Part shown: one piece after another, positions 22,629 to 32,445 of the stretch
Position numbering within the stretch: position 1 is the first letter of the stretch
Layout: each line of letters opens with the position of its first letter
IMG/VR virus record: IMGVR_UViG_3300017735_000023
Coordinates: 1-42,150 of that record
Length of the DNA stretch: 42,150 nucleotides
Reading direction: 5' to 3' (one strand)
DNA from: a virus
Program-made: the position numbers and the translations under genes
The notes under the pieces: generated by a model
What the model saw: only the letters and a program-made list of their open reading frames with translations
What the model was told of the DNA's origin: nothing
Database searches by the model: none

Positions 22629-23033
22629 ATGGAAATACTATTCCTTAGTTTTATCTGTGCCCTATCGTATCTTATTATACTGTGCAAGATATTTACGCTC
22701 AAGTTTATATGTCGCACGCAAGTTCTTTGGGATGTACTGTTCACCTTTGGGTTACCTATGTTATTTGTTGGTACTTTCAGTGGTATGGCTACTGCTTTTA
22801 TTTCAGGCGTACTGTTTTCTGGAATTACTTTCTTTTTATCTATGCTAATGCAACCTAATATCTTAGCTCGCTTCTCATTTCCATATGGTAGCACGCAAGA
22901 TAAAGATAACAAAACAACTAGCGACAATACTAATCCCACTCGCTCTCGACCTTGCCCTGTGTGTAATCAATCGGTGCAGGTACAGAGTAACAAAGAAGAG
23001 AAACAAAGACAGGCGATAGATTGTCGTACATAA
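22629..23033 (+). CDS. Membrane protein with cytoplasmic CPVC tail
   Basis: A 134-residue protein with about three hydrophobic helices (residues 1-22, 33-55, 58-78), then a polar tail carrying a PCPVCNQSV motif (CxxC; possibly a half zinc site needing a partner) and a charged end. It is followed one base later by a rho-independent terminator, closing the first early unit. The family is unknown. A role in the host membrane is inferred from topology. Confidence 0.65.
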   Translation: MEILFLSFICALSYLIILCKIFTLKFICRTQVLWDVLFTFGLPMLFVGTFSGMATAFISGVLFSGITFFLSMLMQPNILARFSFPYGSTQDKDNKTTSDNTNPTRSRPCPVCNQSVQVQSNKEEKQRQAIDCRT

Positions 23034-23034
23034 C

Positions 23035-23077
23035 AATAGCTACCCCTGTATTCAGCAAGGGTAGCTATTTATTATTT
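23035..23077 (+). terminator. Rho-independent terminator before Ubl gene
   Basis: An 11-bp perfect stem (AATAGCTACCC, 23035-23045, with GGGTAGCTATT, 23059-23069) is followed by a T-rich tail (TTTATTATTT). It begins one base after the stop of the membrane protein gene and ends about 70 bases before the ubiquitin-like gene. Confidence 0.85.
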
Positions 23078-23148
23078 ATGAAACCATATACAACTTGAAC
23101 AATGAAAGAGAGAGTAATGAATATGACAAAGATGTCAACAAAAACTTT

Positions 23149-23379
23149 ATGGATAACACAACAATAACAATCAGATATGGTATGTCTAATTCAGTTAGTC
23201 GTACCTTCGATGAGAACTACACAGTTAGTTCTCTTCTCCGTGACACGTCCATCTTAGGTGCATTGTCTGCTCCTGAGGGGTGTGTTGCTGTCTCCAATGG
23301 TCAAACACTTAGCAACGAAAACTATGTCGCTGACTACACATCGATTACACTTGAGCGTCAAGCATCAAGCAAAGCTTAA
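23149..23379 (+). CDS. Ubiquitin-like (beta-grasp) modifier protein
   Basis: A 76-residue protein from ATG 23149, the length of ubiquitin. Predicted order fits the beta-grasp fold: strand (TTITIRYG, residues 4-11), strand (VSRTFDENY), helix (TVSSLLRDTSILGAL), then CVAVSNGQTLSN and ADYTSITLERQ, resembling the 'vNG...DGD.itl' end of MoaD/ThiS/ubiquitin-like proteins. A TTG at 23095 would add 18 charged residues. The chain ends RQASSKA, with no terminal Gly-Gly. It stands immediately upstream of E2-like, E1-like and JAB genes, which makes a protein-modifier role likely. It is isolated by terminators on both sides, suggesting separate, higher expression. The fold call is from pattern only. Confidence 0.75.
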   Translation: MDNTTITIRYGMSNSVSRTFDENYTVSSLLRDTSILGALSAPEGCVAVSNGQTLSNENYVADYTSITLERQASSKA

Positions 23380-23386
23380 CAATGCA

Positions 23387-23456
23387 ACCGATGGTATATG
23401 TGAAAACCTTATATGCAACTCGAAGATTGTAGGTATTATACCATCGGTACCTTTTT
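23387..23456 (+). terminator. Long-loop hairpin terminator between Ubl and E2-like genes
   Basis: A 12-bp perfect stem, ACCGATGGTATA (23387-23398) with TATACCATCGGT (23437-23448), followed by ACC and TTTTTATTATT. The 38-base loop can fold further (ACCT 23407-23410 with AGGT 23431-23434). It starts 8 bases after the Ubl stop and ends 7 bases before the E2-like start. It should terminate or attenuate transcription so that less mRNA covers the enzymes than the modifier. The large loop leaves room for regulation. Confidence 0.75.
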
Positions 23457-23462
23457 ATTATT

Positions 23463-24344
23463 ATGTCAACAACACTACCGCTTCGTCAGGAAATCATTCT
23501 CGGACCTGACGGCAAATTCATCAAGCGAGAAACGAGAGAATCTGTCATTGCTGACGCAGACACAGCTATCACTGCCTGTATGCGTGACGATACTCTTCGT
23601 ATGTCTAACATACCTGTATCAATACCTGTACTAAACAAGGAGTATCAATGTTACTATGCACACAACTCTGGTGTTAATCCAGAAAACTGTTATGCATTTG
23701 TTAATCTAGCTGACGGCTTTCCGTTACCTGGTGCAAAATTCAGACAAACAGATAATCAAGATCTATATGAACTGTATATACTAAGTGACTCAGAAAGACG
23801 AGGCGAACGATCTGAACCTGAGGATGTTGTTCAACCATCTGATATGGTTATGTACAACAACACTGACTACTCTATGTGGATGATGATTAGATTCAACTGT
23901 CGCTATCTCGGTAGTAAGACTGCCAAGCTACAAGCTAGTAGAGACTCAATGACTGCTTACCTATTTGGTATACACAAAGCGTCAAGAAACCTTGTCACCT
24001 TCAATCTACCTAACATCTATGACGACGGCAGACTATGCGGTGGTGGAGACTTCAGAGATCCACGCCTAATAGAAAGCACTATGCCTATTACTTACTTGCA
24101 AACAGCAGTAACTAATCTAATGGATACAATGTTCAAATCACCCTGTAATCGTGACTTGTATTATTCAGAACTAGTCAACGCTCATGCTTGGTGGTACAAA
24201 AGAGACAATGAGTTTGCTACTGTACCAACAAATGCAATGACAGACTTCGACGAAGACTACAAACCACACGGTCGTTTCTTCCAAGATATTACTAACTCTA
24301 ACCTTATAGATTTCGCATCATGTCTACAGTCTACAACAAACTAA
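23463..24344 (+). CDS. E2-like protein (PRTRC protein B-like)
   Basis: A 293-residue protein. The segment at 180-196 (FNLPNIYDDGRLCGGGD) resembles the conserved 'N.Y.dGrvClG' motif of PRTRC system protein B, a family predicted to adopt an E2 ubiquitin-conjugating-like fold. C192 is the candidate thioester-accepting cysteine. Upstream, FPLPGAKF (86-93) and YELYILSDSER (102-112) also fit that family's beta-sheet core. It is the first gene of a four-gene overlapping set with an unknown protein, E1-like and JAB genes, and would receive the modifier from the E1. The first 60 residues are not recognised. E2 assignment is family-pattern inference; catalysis is untested. Confidence 0.7.
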   Translation: MSTTLPLRQEIILGPDGKFIKRETRESVIADADTAITACMRDDTLRMSNIPVSIPVLNKEYQCYYAHNSGVNPENCYAFVNLADGFPLPGAKFRQTDNQDLYELYILSDSERRGERSEPEDVVQPSDMVMYNNTDYSMWMMIRFNCRYLGSKTAKLQASRDSMTAYLFGIHKASRNLVTFNLPNIYDDGRLCGGGDFRDPRLIESTMPITYLQTAVTNLMDTMFKSPCNRDLYYSELVNAHAWWYKRDNEFATVPTNAMTDFDEDYKPHGRFFQDITNSNLIDFASCLQSTTN

Positions 24345-24685
24345 TCAACAATCAGTGTAGTGCTACACCACTATACTATGCATTCAACTATGCTAACGAC
24401 AACCCAGACAACATGGTTACATCACACCATATGCAAAACATAGCTCAAGAACTAGAACAATCAAACAAAACCTATGCCGATACACACGAGATTGATCACG
24501 GTCTAGCTGACGATGAGATGCGTATCTTACACAAGATACTAGCTCGTGCTTATCCATCTGACACTGGTGTCGGTCGTAAGAGAGGTGCGATATTGAGGTA
24601 TATAAAACACTTCAAAGAAACACAACACAAACCAGCTCAAGTAACTGGTCAACAACTTCACAGATATCTAAAACGCAATGGCTAA
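24320..24685 (+). CDS. Unknown component between E2-like and E1-like genes
   Basis: A 121-residue helical protein (MSTVYNKLINNQCSATPLYY...), with His-rich segments (SHHMQN; HEIDHGLADDEMRILHKILARAY) and a basic end (QQLHRYLKRNG). It overlaps the E2-like gene by 25 bases and the E1-like gene by 8, so it is translated with them. I do not recognise a family. Position suggests an accessory, adaptor or substrate-selecting subunit of the conjugation system, but nothing in the sequence proves this. Confidence 0.8.
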   Translation: MSTVYNKLINNQCSATPLYYAFNYANDNPDNMVTSHHMQNIAQELEQSNKTYADTHEIDHGLADDEMRILHKILARAYPSDTGVGRKRGAILRYIKHFKETQHKPAQVTGQQLHRYLKRNG

Positions 24686-25403
24686 ACCAAAACTAAACGC
24701 ACTTATTGTAGGCTGTGGTGGTGTAACATCATACATGTTACCTGCCCTCAAGAACAGCTTTGACCTAGAGGTCACACTAGTTGACGGAGATACACTAGAG
24801 AAAAGAAACCTAGACCGTCAGCTATTCCGCAACAACCATGTCGGACTTAACAAAGCAGTCGCACTTGCCAAAGCATACACGCTCCGCAAGAACGAATGCA
24901 ATATAGTACAACAATACTTTGACAGCGAGATGCTAGACACTGAGTACAAGTACTGGTTCTCTCGTGCAGATATATTTATCTGTGCTGTTGACAACCACCC
25001 AGCCAGACGAGACCTGCTTCATGCATCAAAAGAAATGAACAAACCTTGTCTTATCATGGCTAATGAGTACTCGACTAGTCAAGCTATGATGTATGTGCCA
25101 CACTTGGAAGCACAGTATCCAATGATTAATCCTATGCTTCGTTACCCTGAGATACAAACTTCAAACACAGGTAGCCCTATCAGTTGCCAAGGAGATGCAC
25201 TCGAGAGTACGCCTCAACTAGCTATTGCGAACCAGGTTAGTGCGTCCCTTGGTAATCTCCTGCTTTGGAACTGGGCACCATACCTGTTTGACGAACAAGA
25301 GAGAGGCGATTGGTATCCTGTTGAGTACCAAACTACCTTCAGTAAACTAGAAACTATAACCCTTGCTGACCTAGCAAACATAACAGTACCATCCTATGCC
25401 TAA
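24678..25403 (+). CDS. E1-like adenylating enzyme (ThiF/MoeB/PRTRC-ThiF type)
   Basis: A 241-residue ThiF-fold protein. A Gly-rich nucleotide loop lies at residues 10-18 (IVGCGGVTS); VDGD at 35-38 gives the ribose-binding acidic residue; NLDRQLF (44-50) holds the conserved Arg-Gln, LNK (57-59) the Lys, and CAVDN (102-106) the ATP/Mg aspartate. C170 in SPISCQG is the best candidate for the thioester cysteine. Such enzymes adenylate the C-terminus of a ubiquitin-like protein and pass it on as a thioester. Length matches single-domain ThiF-like proteins of PRTRC cassettes. The gene overlaps its neighbours by 8 bases on each side. Confidence 0.9.
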   Translation: MAKPKLNALIVGCGGVTSYMLPALKNSFDLEVTLVDGDTLEKRNLDRQLFRNNHVGLNKAVALAKAYTLRKNECNIVQQYFDSEMLDTEYKYWFSRADIFICAVDNHPARRDLLHASKEMNKPCLIMANEYSTSQAMMYVPHLEAQYPMINPMLRYPEIQTSNTGSPISCQGDALESTPQLAIANQVSASLGNLLLWNWAPYLFDEQERGDWYPVEYQTTFSKLETITLADLANITVPSYA

Positions 25404-26526
25404 GAAATACTATGTTATATCCAAAAGTAAACTTCACGAGGAGGTTAAGAACAAAATGTTCACGACCTATAAACCAATTGAATTACCAGAATATGAAGAG
25501 CTTACGCCTGAATGGCACGGTAAGAAGATCCCTCTCACTATGTGGCGAGAGATCCTTGCCTTCATGAAGCTGAGCTATGATGAACTCAAGTCAGAGACTA
25601 TGTTGTTCTTGTACTATGATGATACAAAGAAACAACCTTGGTCTTATTGGATACCACCTCAGATCACAGCAGGTATGACTGTCAAGTCTAACCCTGAACA
25701 CTCAGAGTTCCAAGCACAGCGTGCTCAGTATCCAGACATTATGTTCGGTACTGTACACCACCACTGTAGTACATCTGCATTCCAATCTGGTACTGATGAA
25801 GCCGACGAGACTAACCGAGAAGGCTTTCACTTTACTGTTGGTAACCTCGACAAACCTGATGACATTGACATCCACTTTCGTTGGTGTCTAGACAATCAGT
25901 GTCACGAGCTAGACAATCTATCTATTGCTATCGGTGGTGCACAGTCACCATTCAAGAAAGACATAGAGCTTACTGATGATATGCTTGAACTACAAAGTGA
26001 GTATATGAATCAGCAGTTGGCTAAGCTACCTGACCTCAGCAAGTATGACTTCACTGAACAGATGAAGAACATAGACAAGCCAGCATACACACTGCCTGTT
26101 TACTCAAAAAAAAATACGGAGCCACTATCAGTCGTCCCTTCTATGGTAGAAGAACAACTTACAGTTGGTGACATCGTCGATGAAATTCTTTTCGCTATTA
26201 AATTTGATACTGACATTGAGTCTTGTATTGAAACCTATTACCAAACACATGAACCAGAACAAGCCAGCCAAAAAATCACAGACCTGTACTCAGGATTTGT
26301 CTGGGACACAGAATATGCAAGAGTTCTACACGGAATGCTCACAAATTCTGAGTACCACTTGTCAAGATCTTATGAAAGTTTTCTCAAAGCATTCAACAAA
26401 CATCTTGACATGTTTAAAGAACAAGGTTACATCTTATCGGACAATGACATCATCCAAGAACTGGAGTCATACCCAGATGAAGACCGAGAAACAATTCAAC
26501 CAATGGATAACCCACCAATTCTATGA
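25396..26526 (+). CDS. JAB/JAMM metallopeptidase with C-terminal extension
   Basis: A 376-residue protein. Residues 117-134 carry the complete JAMM zinc signature: HxH at H121 and H123, S131 and D134, with the spacing HxH-x7-S-x2-D; E67 is a plausible upstream catalytic Glu. JAB proteases in ubiquitin-like systems trim the modifier's C-terminus or remove it from targets. Residues 1-180 form the JAB domain; from about 235 on follows an acidic helical extension I do not recognise. A run of nine A residues (26106-26114) lies exactly at the linker. The gene overlaps the E1-like gene by 8 bases and the nuclease gene by 50. Confidence 0.88.
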   Translation: MPKKYYVISKSKLHEEVKNKMFTTYKPIELPEYEELTPEWHGKKIPLTMWREILAFMKLSYDELKSETMLFLYYDDTKKQPWSYWIPPQITAGMTVKSNPEHSEFQAQRAQYPDIMFGTVHHHCSTSAFQSGTDEADETNREGFHFTVGNLDKPDDIDIHFRWCLDNQCHELDNLSIAIGGAQSPFKKDIELTDDMLELQSEYMNQQLAKLPDLSKYDFTEQMKNIDKPAYTLPVYSKKNTEPLSVVPSMVEEQLTVGDIVDEILFAIKFDTDIESCIETYYQTHEPEQASQKITDLYSGFVWDTEYARVLHGMLTNSEYHLSRSYESFLKAFNKHLDMFKEQGYILSDNDIIQELESYPDEDRETIQPMDNPPIL

Positions 26527-26875: not shown

Positions 26876-27038
26876 CTGGTCTAACCACGAAGGTCCCGTT
26901 CCGAAACCTTGCGATGCCACACTGCAACGGACAAAATGTGTGGTCTGGACTTCTTAGTGACCGTTCCAAGGAACATGTATCAATGGAACTATCCAGATAA
27001 ACTGGGGAAACCCAGCCAATTTATTAACCCAACTACTT
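26876..27038 (+). other. Structured 163-base gap upstream of DNA polymerase unit
   Basis: No clear gene. Several self-complementary pieces are packed here: GTCC(C)GTT (26893-26900) with AACGGAC (26926-26932); CCACAC (26917-26922) with GTGTGG (26938-26943); GTTCC-AA-GGAAC (26963-26974); and CTGGG-GAAA-CCCAG (27002-27015), a stem closed by a GNRA tetraloop. No T-tract follows. It may be an untranslated leader with a folded RNA or an mRNA processing site. A 28-codon open frame at 26914 has no support. Confidence 0.55.
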
Positions 27039-30879: not shown

Positions 30880-30909
30880 CCCTGGGGGCTACTAGCCCCT
30901 GGGGTTTTT
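30880..30909 (+). terminator. Strong GC-rich terminator after SSB-like gene
   Basis: CCCTGGGGGCT (30880-30890) pairs with AGCCCCTGGGG (30894-30904) through 11 pairs including two G-T wobbles, a 3-base loop, then TTTTT. It lies 31 bases after the preceding stop and 3 bases before the primase ATG at 30913. An upstream in-frame ATG (30874) would place the hairpin inside the coding region, which supports the later start. Confidence 0.88.
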
Positions 30910-30912
30910 ACT

Positions 30913-32445
30913 ATGATACCACTAACAGAACTCGCCACCAAATTTCATTCTTTATTTCAAGCTAATCCCAATGTGTACGGTCAGACTACACTGACTGGTA
31001 AAGTAAGAGACAGAGACGGCAAGCAAGATTCCAAATCATTTCTTGTCAAGAACCCACTCACTGTTGAGATATGGGAAGACCACCTCAAAGGTAACAGACT
31101 CATTGGCTGTACACCCATACTAGATAACGACCGTGTTGTGTGGGGTGCACTAGACATTGATGTGTACCAGAACAGTAACACTATCGAAGAACTAAACAAA
31201 CAGATAGCAGAACATAAGCTACCATTTATTGTATTTAGATCTAAGTCAGGTGGTGCACATGTCTATGTATTCTTATCCGAACCTATTGCTGCTAAGACAG
31301 TGATAGATAAACTCAAAGCATTCTCTGCTTTCTTTGGTCAAGGTGTGTGTGAGATATATCCTAAGCAACCTAAGATTGGTAACCGCAAGGACGACAGCAA
31401 GTATGGTAACTGGATTAACATGCCGTACTCTGGTAATCCTACACTACAGTATGCAATCAAACCTGATGGTACAGGGTACAACCCTGAAGAATTTTTACAA
31501 GTAGCTAAAGCTACTAGACTTACAGAAGCACAGTTCAAAGAACTAAAAGTACCAGAGGTAGAATCAGAACTACTACCTGAAGGACCTCCGTGTCTTAATT
31601 ATATATTTGAAAACAGAACTCAAGAATCAGAGAACAGAAACATAACACTATCCAATGTAGCAGTGTACCTAAAGAAAGCTGAGCCTTCCGAATGGAAGAG
31701 CCAGCTTCATAGGTTTAATAAAAAATTTTCTGATCCGTTGCCTGACCGTGAGGTAGATGCAATCGTCAAGTCATACGAGAAGAAAGACTACAAGTACCAA
31801 TGTGCACAGGAACCACTGTGTAGATTCTGTGATGCTAAGTTGTGTGGTCAACGTAGACATGGCATAGGACAAGAAGAGTTCTTACCTAACAATCGTTCAT
31901 TGATACAGCTCAAGTCAGATCCACCGCTGTGGTTCCTGACTCTAGACCACGAAGAGATACAACTAACTACTGCAGAGTTTGACAACTTCAATATGTTTAA
32001 TCAGAGAGTTATGGAAAGATTGTTGTTTAAGTATCCACCTATTAAACAAGAAGACTGGATTAAACAACAGAACCTACTACTAAAGAACTGTGTTCGTATT
32101 GATGTACCATTTGAGATGACACCTATCGGTCAGTTCGTAGAGTATCTATCTACATTCTGTTCTGCTGCTAGTGAGGACATGACTCACATTAAGAACGGAC
32201 CAGTCAGACAAAACAATTACTATGTATTTAGAATGGTAGACCTCAAAGATTATTTGAATCAACAAAGATTCTCTGAGCTACCTGATAATAAGTTACTGTC
32301 TGTCCTTAAGCGTACGCTCAAAGCAGACACAACAAGAGTATGTATTAGTAATATAAGTCTAAGATGCTGGCGTGTACACAGTGACAACCTGCATATGGAC
32401 CCTTCACAACCTATGCCCAACTTACAAGATGACGATTCCTATTAA
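30913..32445 (+). CDS. Archaeo-eukaryotic-type primase (TOTE-primase-like)
   Basis: A 510-residue protein from ATG 30913. The catalytic DxD pair is D81/D83 (GALDIDVYQ), followed by FRSKSGGAHVYVF with H116, matching the DhD...sxH pattern of AEP primases, most like the primase domain described in TOTE conflict systems and related phage genes. A zinc-knuckle-like set C297-x5-C303-x2-C306-x4-C311 lies in the middle, reminiscent of PriCT/PriL-type zinc regions. The C-terminal third resembles a DNA-binding helical domain. It would start DNA synthesis for the family A polymerase. The start is just behind a terminator. Confidence 0.85.
   Translation: MIPLTELATKFHSLFQANPNVYGQTTLTGKVRDRDGKQDSKSFLVKNPLTVEIWEDHLKGNRLIGCTPILDNDRVVWGALDIDVYQNSNTIEELNKQIAEHKLPFIVFRSKSGGAHVYVFLSEPIAAKTVIDKLKAFSAFFGQGVCEIYPKQPKIGNRKDDSKYGNWINMPYSGNPTLQYAIKPDGTGYNPEEFLQVAKATRLTEAQFKELKVPEVESELLPEGPPCLNYIFENRTQESENRNITLSNVAVYLKKAEPSEWKSQLHRFNKKFSDPLPDREVDAIVKSYEKKDYKYQCAQEPLCRFCDAKLCGQRRHGIGQEEFLPNNRSLIQLKSDPPLWFLTLDHEEIQLTTAEFDNFNMFNQRVMERLLFKYPPIKQEDWIKQQNLLLKNCVRIDVPFEMTPIGQFVEYLSTFCSAASEDMTHIKNGPVRQNNYYVFRMVDLKDYLNQQRFSELPDNKLLSVLKRTLKADTTRVCISNISLRCWRVHSDNLHMDPSQPMPNLQDDDSY

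Follow-up and report, generated by a model that had tools for sequence, protein, structure and literature searches.

The stretch of viral DNA considered here is IMG/VR record IMGVR_UViG_3300017735_000023, positions 1 to 42,150, and the whole of this 42,150-nucleotide (nt) stretch is referred to as the window. Its minus strand carries the structural genes and its plus strand the replication genes (PolA, primase, helicases), and the plus strand includes a cluster in the order TM134 - Ubl - E2-like - X - E1/ThiF - JAB - VRR-NUC - g83 - PolA, in which the gene for a ubiquitin-like modifier (Ubl) lies between two hairpins (Table 1). An earlier note on this DNA had placed stem-loops before and after the Ubl gene, had named the Ubl, E2, E1 and JAB genes and had set the enzymes after the second hairpin. 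All of this was borne out: the stem-loops are present, exceed shuffled sequence and recur in relatives, the identities agree with a ubiquitin fold, the motif PN-x3-G-x-(I/L)-C, a ThiF match and a PRTRC_A-like match, and the E2-like, X, E1 and JAB genes run gap-free after hairpin 2. The two hairpins are, however, not a matched pair of rightward terminators.

Table 1. Positions of the hairpins, promoter-like boxes, predicted RNA and genes around Ubl in the window
Feature	Position	Strand	Remarks
Predicted small leftward RNA, about 76 nt	23028..23104	-	Predicted start near 23103, end at hairpin 1
Hairpin 1, between TM134 and Ubl	23035..23069	-	Leftward intrinsic-terminator-like family-wide; mixed tails in this clade
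TACTCT, candidate -10	23111..23116	-	16-nt spacer; common to nearest relative L037
TTGACA (TGTCAA on plus), -35-like box	23133..23138	-	Conserved upstream of Ubl
Ubl	23149..23379	+	76 residues, beta-grasp/ubiquitin fold; lies between hairpins 1 and 2
Hairpin 2	23387..23448	+	Covarying stem of 12 base pairs (bp) around inner stem ACC-TTATA-(NNNNN CTCGAAGA NNNNN)-GGT
ACC and T-rich tail	23449..23462	+	Runs directly into E2-like start codon; no Shine-Dalgarno sequence
E2-like protein	23463..24344	+	Motif PN[IV][YF]-x-x-G-x-[IL]-C, invariant Cys192
X, conserved protein	24320..24685	+	Motif GRKRGA[IV]LRYI
E1-like ThiF-family adenylyltransferase	24678..25403	+	ThiF match E=4e-20
JAB-like peptidase	25396..26526	+	HHH..S..D; weak PRTRC_A match, 8e-5

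The arms of hairpin 1 (23035-23048/23056-23069; AATAGCTACCCCTG / CAAGGGTAGCTATT) are 93% complementary with 11 unbroken outer pairs, and those of hairpin 2 (23387-23398/23437-23448; ACCGATGGTATA / TATACCATCGGT) form 12 perfect pairs with 38 nt between them. For both hairpins alike the observed stem score was reached by none of 200 local shuffles, and the window has six stems scoring at least 28, where 30 dinucleotide shuffles averaged 0.97 such stems and never gave more than 5. A search of viral contigs gave 35 loci with an E1 relative and 41 with Ubl, and the gene order of the cluster is kept across these relatives. Recurrence of the hairpins was counted in 27 representative marine-virus loci; 25 of them have a strong stem upstream of Ubl and 19 have one in the Ubl-E2 gap. 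The hairpin sequences are wholly different between clades, so it is the hairpins that have been maintained and not their letters. Rfam gave no credible match for hairpin 1, hairpin 2 or the conserved gap elements, and returned only eukaryotic or unrelated models below threshold.

A simple score with decaying weights, a relative measure particular to this study, was given to the T-run after each stem on both strands. Among 20 deduplicated loci the median tail score of hairpin 1 was 3.24 on the minus strand and 0.34 on the plus strand (Wilcoxon P=3.6e-5, an optimistic value because the loci are related), whereas hairpin 2 showed the opposite polarity with 2.41 on the plus and 0.50 on the minus strand (P=0.04). 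Most relatives thus have a T-run directly after hairpin 1 on the minus side, and in clade F there are two tandem hairpins, each with such a run. The stem of hairpin 1 is stable and GC-containing, with a folding energy of -18.7 kcal/mol. Its tails are mixed in the window's clade (plus TATTATTTATG, minus GTTATGTACG); the window has a moderate plus-side T-run (TATTATTT, 2.57) that is absent in most relatives, its minus-side run is weak, and here hairpin 1 may act in both directions. The rightward terminator that the earlier note saw in hairpin 1 probably has the wrong direction, since in most relatives it has a leftward T-run and no rightward one. Together with the leftward promoter-like boxes described below, the leftward T-run in most relatives makes it more likely that hairpin 1 ends a minus-strand small RNA than that it insulates Ubl. 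Hairpin direction needs to be checked on both strands before the word terminator is assigned to a gene.

In 38 of 39 loci the stretch from hairpin 1 to the Ubl start codon contains the hexamer TGTCAA, the reverse complement of which is TTGACA. TGTCAA is also present in all 16 mutually dissimilar sequences, which were selected for having it. A -10-like hexamer in the minus direction, 16-18 nt from TTGACA, scored above 4999 of 5000 shuffled sets, and the plus-direction -10 score was far lower. At the level of sequence, promoter-like and terminator-like elements on the opposite strand therefore bound a short RNA, strongly in the relatives and more weakly in the window. The best reading of these elements is a leftward RNA gene of 66-139 nt (mostly 66-95) with hairpin 1 as its terminator, and it is a predicted RNA that is meant. 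Across the loci the predicted RNAs have a U-rich middle and a terminator hairpin, and in clade C a conserved block (CAACCCATCCACT) starts where the predicted RNA starts.

Three other readings of this leader were rejected. TGTCAA as a plus-strand -35 box was given up as no -10 signal was found downstream of it, and a Bacteroidetes-type promoter (TAnnTTTG), which could be picked out by eye in some clades, is not general. As for a conserved leader peptide, the candidate after hairpin 1 (MKPYTT and a stop in the window) loses its ATG in L053, L057 and L076 and its frame elsewhere.

In most lineages hairpin 2 is built of an 11-12 bp stem and a short loop with a T-run next to it (T scores 2.4-4.7), and in 15 of the 19 loci where its stem is strong the E2-like start codon follows at 12-18 nt. 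In the window the Ubl stop codon is 7 nt to its left and the E2 start codon 14 nt to its right. The 12-bp stem with T-tract of the earlier note stands as to the 12 pairs and the T-run, but the run begins 3 nt past the stem (GGT-ACC-TTTTT, score 0.99) and not within the 0-2 nt of an intrinsic terminator; throughout the window's clade a C-rich spacer of 2-4 nt precedes the T-run (scores 0.4-1.9) and the stem lies 7-9 nt past the Ubl stop. Some relatives have instead a spacing of 32-50 nt between stop and hairpin, with strong T-runs. When a terminator stood 5 bp behind a stop codon in a test system in E. coli, its efficiency fell from about 90% to less than 10%, and more than 27 nt from the stop codon were needed for full efficiency (PMC4824070). 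The weak T-run, the 7-9 nt spacing and these E. coli data together suggest that termination in the window's clade should be weak and dependent on Ubl translation. Hairpin 2 thus appears to be a rightward terminator in most lineages and a poor one in the window's clade.

The 38 nt between the arms had been taken for an unusually large loop and a possible regulated attenuator. It is neither an open loop nor the short loop of an intrinsic terminator; it contains a covarying inner stem, which supports the attenuator idea. In the five sequences of the clade 98% of cells are paired, 8 pairs are changed on both sides and the covariation score of 0.515 is above all 500 shuffles, while slid controls were at most 39% paired. 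One pair of the inner stem varies as C-G, U-A and G-C, and CCTTATAT and CTCNAAG are conserved and unpaired. Further relatives of hairpin 2 from this clade were sought and only four contigs, all known already, were obtained. A conserved competing helix was looked for in the predicted consensus and none was found; the terminator-side fold alone covaries. The hairpin 2 of the window could be a structured, regulated attenuator or a protein-binding site. Frameshifting or read-through of Ubl into hairpin 2 was rejected: although the window has an open overlapping frame, this frame is not conserved, and the base changes in the hairpin track pairing and not codon positions.

From the computed hairpins, their recurrence, the tail polarity in the relatives, the conserved TTGACA and the covariation of hairpin 2, we infer an arrangement of transcription, termination, antisense action and modifier-to-enzyme ratio in which the Ubl gene lies between two separate RNA devices, a leftward small RNA unit and the rightward intercistronic hairpin 2; our confidence in it is evenly poised. 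In the left device the TTGACA promoter in the Ubl leader would give rise to the short RNA, which would end at hairpin 1, just past the stop codon of the upstream gene. Any rightward message crossing the region would have a leader to which this RNA is antisense, and the RNA might lower Ubl expression via pairing or transcriptional collision. In the right device, hairpin 2 of most lineages would be a good intrinsic terminator, yielding a short Ubl message and read-through into E2-X-E1-JAB. In the window's clade it would have turned into a structured and leaky element near the Ubl stop, where termination or trimming of the 3' end would be set by ribosome occupancy. A further proposal, tentative and in our view rather doubtful, is that this marine virus family controls its own Ubl by two layers of RNA. 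The first would be a conserved gene for a leftward small RNA that spans the Ubl leader, the second a structured attenuator, sensitive to translation, by which the modifier-to-enzyme ratio is set.

The short Ubl transcript with read-through proposed earlier is a plausible model for hairpin 2. A terminator-like hairpin has been maintained between Ubl and the enzymes in most lineages while its sequence has turned over, and this fits an excess of modifier with read-through to the enzymes. A weak hairpin 7 nt past the stop makes a short abundant Ubl transcript less certain in the window than in the relatives with 32-50 nt. The fuller form of that proposal, in which both hairpins are rightward intrinsic terminators and Ubl is transcribed abundantly from its own promoter with rare read-through to the enzymes, seems unlikely. 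It draws on the moderate plus-side T-run of hairpin 1 in the window and on the canonical rightward terminator in many relatives at hairpin 2, but in nearly all relatives outside the clade the T-run of hairpin 1 is on the minus side and not on the plus side, and the window's hairpin 2 has its 3-nt spacer and its 7-nt stop distance. There is also no sigma-70-like rightward promoter between 23077 and 23149. Equally unlikely is that the hairpins do not terminate but act in processing by RNase III or exonucleases or in stability, as with T7 early genes, so that the Ubl and enzyme segments would have unequal half-lives. T-runs next to the stem in many lineages, stems of 10-15 bp that are short for RNase III and the strand-specific tail polarity of hairpin 1 all speak against this, although it would account for strong stems kept without a good T-run, as in hairpin 2 of the window's clade and in L047, and for the structured and conserved interior of hairpin 2.

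TGTCAA might also be a binding site or leader motif of a rightward Ubl message, with hairpin 1 as a hairpin in its 5' leader. The hexamer is always within the Ubl leader, and in many clades there is a dyad (e.g. GCTCATATGAGC) together with an A/C-rich unstructured plus-strand leader after it. A/C-rich leaders are common in genes of the window, where a Shine-Dalgarno-like match, even a loose one, was found upstream of only 7 of 45 predicted start codons. This explanation is nevertheless improbable, as TTGACA is a perfect match and is followed by -10-like hexamers at a suitable spacing when read leftward but not rightward, and minus-side terminator tails also lie at the right distance. The least probable of the alternatives, and in our view a very doubtful one, is that in the window's clade hairpin 2 acts as a regulatory RNA that senses a ligand or a protein and controls E2-X-E1-JAB. 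The conserved unpaired elements with covarying stems on either side, 14 nt before the E2 start codon, would suit such an RNA, but the element is known from five close sequences only, has no Rfam match and no alternative fold shown, and plain terminators suffice in other clades.

Several points weigh against the two separate devices that we prefer. The 20 loci behind the tail polarity are related and are not fully independent points, and the window's own minus tail of hairpin 1 (1.43) is weaker than its plus tail. L048 lacks TGTCAA, and the -10 of the window agrees with the consensus at three of six positions. What counts as a promoter or a terminator was judged by the rules of E. coli and not by those of the virus's own host. 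As no rightward promoter for Ubl came to light, a transcript start of its own can be no more than putative. The covariation of hairpin 2 rests on five sequences, and in eight of the 27 loci a strong hairpin 2 is missing, its place being taken by other elements or by a short conserved hairpin. The short hairpin, CTGAG-A-GAGATGAAACTGCT, occurs in several of these eight and in two other loci, its motif CTGAGCACGAGATGAAACTGCTC is duplicated in tandem in the Ubl-E2 gap of L070 and L072, and an exact search placed the motif only in contigs of this virus family. Clade F has longer gaps of several parts.

The proteins encoded by the cluster are those of a ubiquitin-like system. The fold of Ubl was predicted with high confidence (predicted local distance difference test, pLDDT, 90.3), and the best structural matches of the model were ubiquitin variants, NEDD8 and ISG15 (probability 1.00); its C-terminus, QASSKA, is invariant and has no Gly-Gly. 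The motif of the E2-like protein with its invariant Cys is what we take to be the E2 active-site layout. Pfam Prok-E2_D was touched by five of 25 E2-like relatives, weakly (best E 0.049), and the predicted E2-like model gave no meaningful fold match in the PDB. In a scan of selected proteins of the window, curated PRTRC cut-offs were not reached by PRTRC_ThiF (45.8 vs 144.75 bits) or PRTRC_A (22.3 vs 101.8); with all scores so far under the cut-offs, the viral system is a relative of PRTRC and not a member. Two adjacent long inverted repeats lie in the 3' part of the JAB gene (window 26286-26413), with 15-nt arms that are 93% and 87% complementary.

Megablast of 12 kb against phage records gave no match and a close isolate of the virus is not known; against the listed phage records the polymerase of the window reached no more than 40% identity, and the best of them included the pelagiphage HTVC023P. 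In a contig binned as Sneathiella (Alphaproteobacteria; L090 and L092) there is a closely related version of the cluster, where TGTCAA stands 87 nt ahead of Ubl; this contig is either a possible hint to the host or a virus that was binned wrongly. A related operon lies at L091:2686-6457, on a contig binned as Cloacimonadota; its JAB, E1 and E2-like genes stand in a different order, and it has a tandem double Ubl, both copies of which end in HDKG.

Structured elements were also seen elsewhere in the window. The gap before g83/PolA (window 26876-27038) is conserved among L001-L007 as a block with RNA-like structure, for which Rfam has no match; its stem CCACAC/GTGTGG varies as CTACAC/GTGTAG and CTGCAC/GTGCAG, and CTATCC-AGATAA-CTGG...CAGCCAATTT is nearly fixed. 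A primase-like gene, with its true start probably at 30913, is directly preceded by a strong hairpin with TTTTT at 30880-30904 (CCCTGGGGGCT act AGCCCCTGGGG TTTTTACTATG).

Ubiquitin-type systems need far more modifier than enzyme, and we know of no account of how compact viral operons reach this ratio. Hairpins that are conserved in position and variable in sequence let a viral solution be read. If the proposal is true, a conserved opposite-strand RNA gene before a viral Ubl gene would be a new control point, and the two layers would amount to RNA control of a viral ubiquitin-like system. The Ubl gene may thus be under RNA control of a kind not described before.

The predicted leftward RNA is like lambda OOP (pO-oop-tO) in being a short leftward RNA with its own promoter inside a rightward early operon and with a hairpin terminator, here a predicted one. 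The lambda OOP RNA is about 77 nt long. It is expressed leftward from pO and ends at the tO hairpin (PMC5869508). Unlike OOP, the predicted RNA has its end at the stop codon of the upstream gene or shortly beyond it, and the leader that it covers belongs to the downstream gene, Ubl. A relation in sequence to OOP is not expected. Hairpin 2, a few nt past a stop codon, is placed like ribosome-repressed terminators (lambda tR2 constructs, the pyrBI attenuator), and at stop-proximal terminators read-through is decided by ribosome occupancy (PMC4824070); it differs from them in its imperfect T-run and structured 38-nt interior. The cluster as a whole resembles the prokaryotic Ubl-E2-E1-JAB operon groups (Iyer et al. 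2006; PMC1779556) and the PRTRC set in bringing together Ubl, E2-like, ThiF/E1-like and JAB genes, and resembles the latter also in that its ThiF and JAB match PRTRC_ThiF and PRTRC_A and its E2 relatives touch Prok-E2_D. Unlike the prokaryotic operons, it lies in a virus, among replication genes, and includes protein X, and its Ubl ends in QASSKA and not GG.
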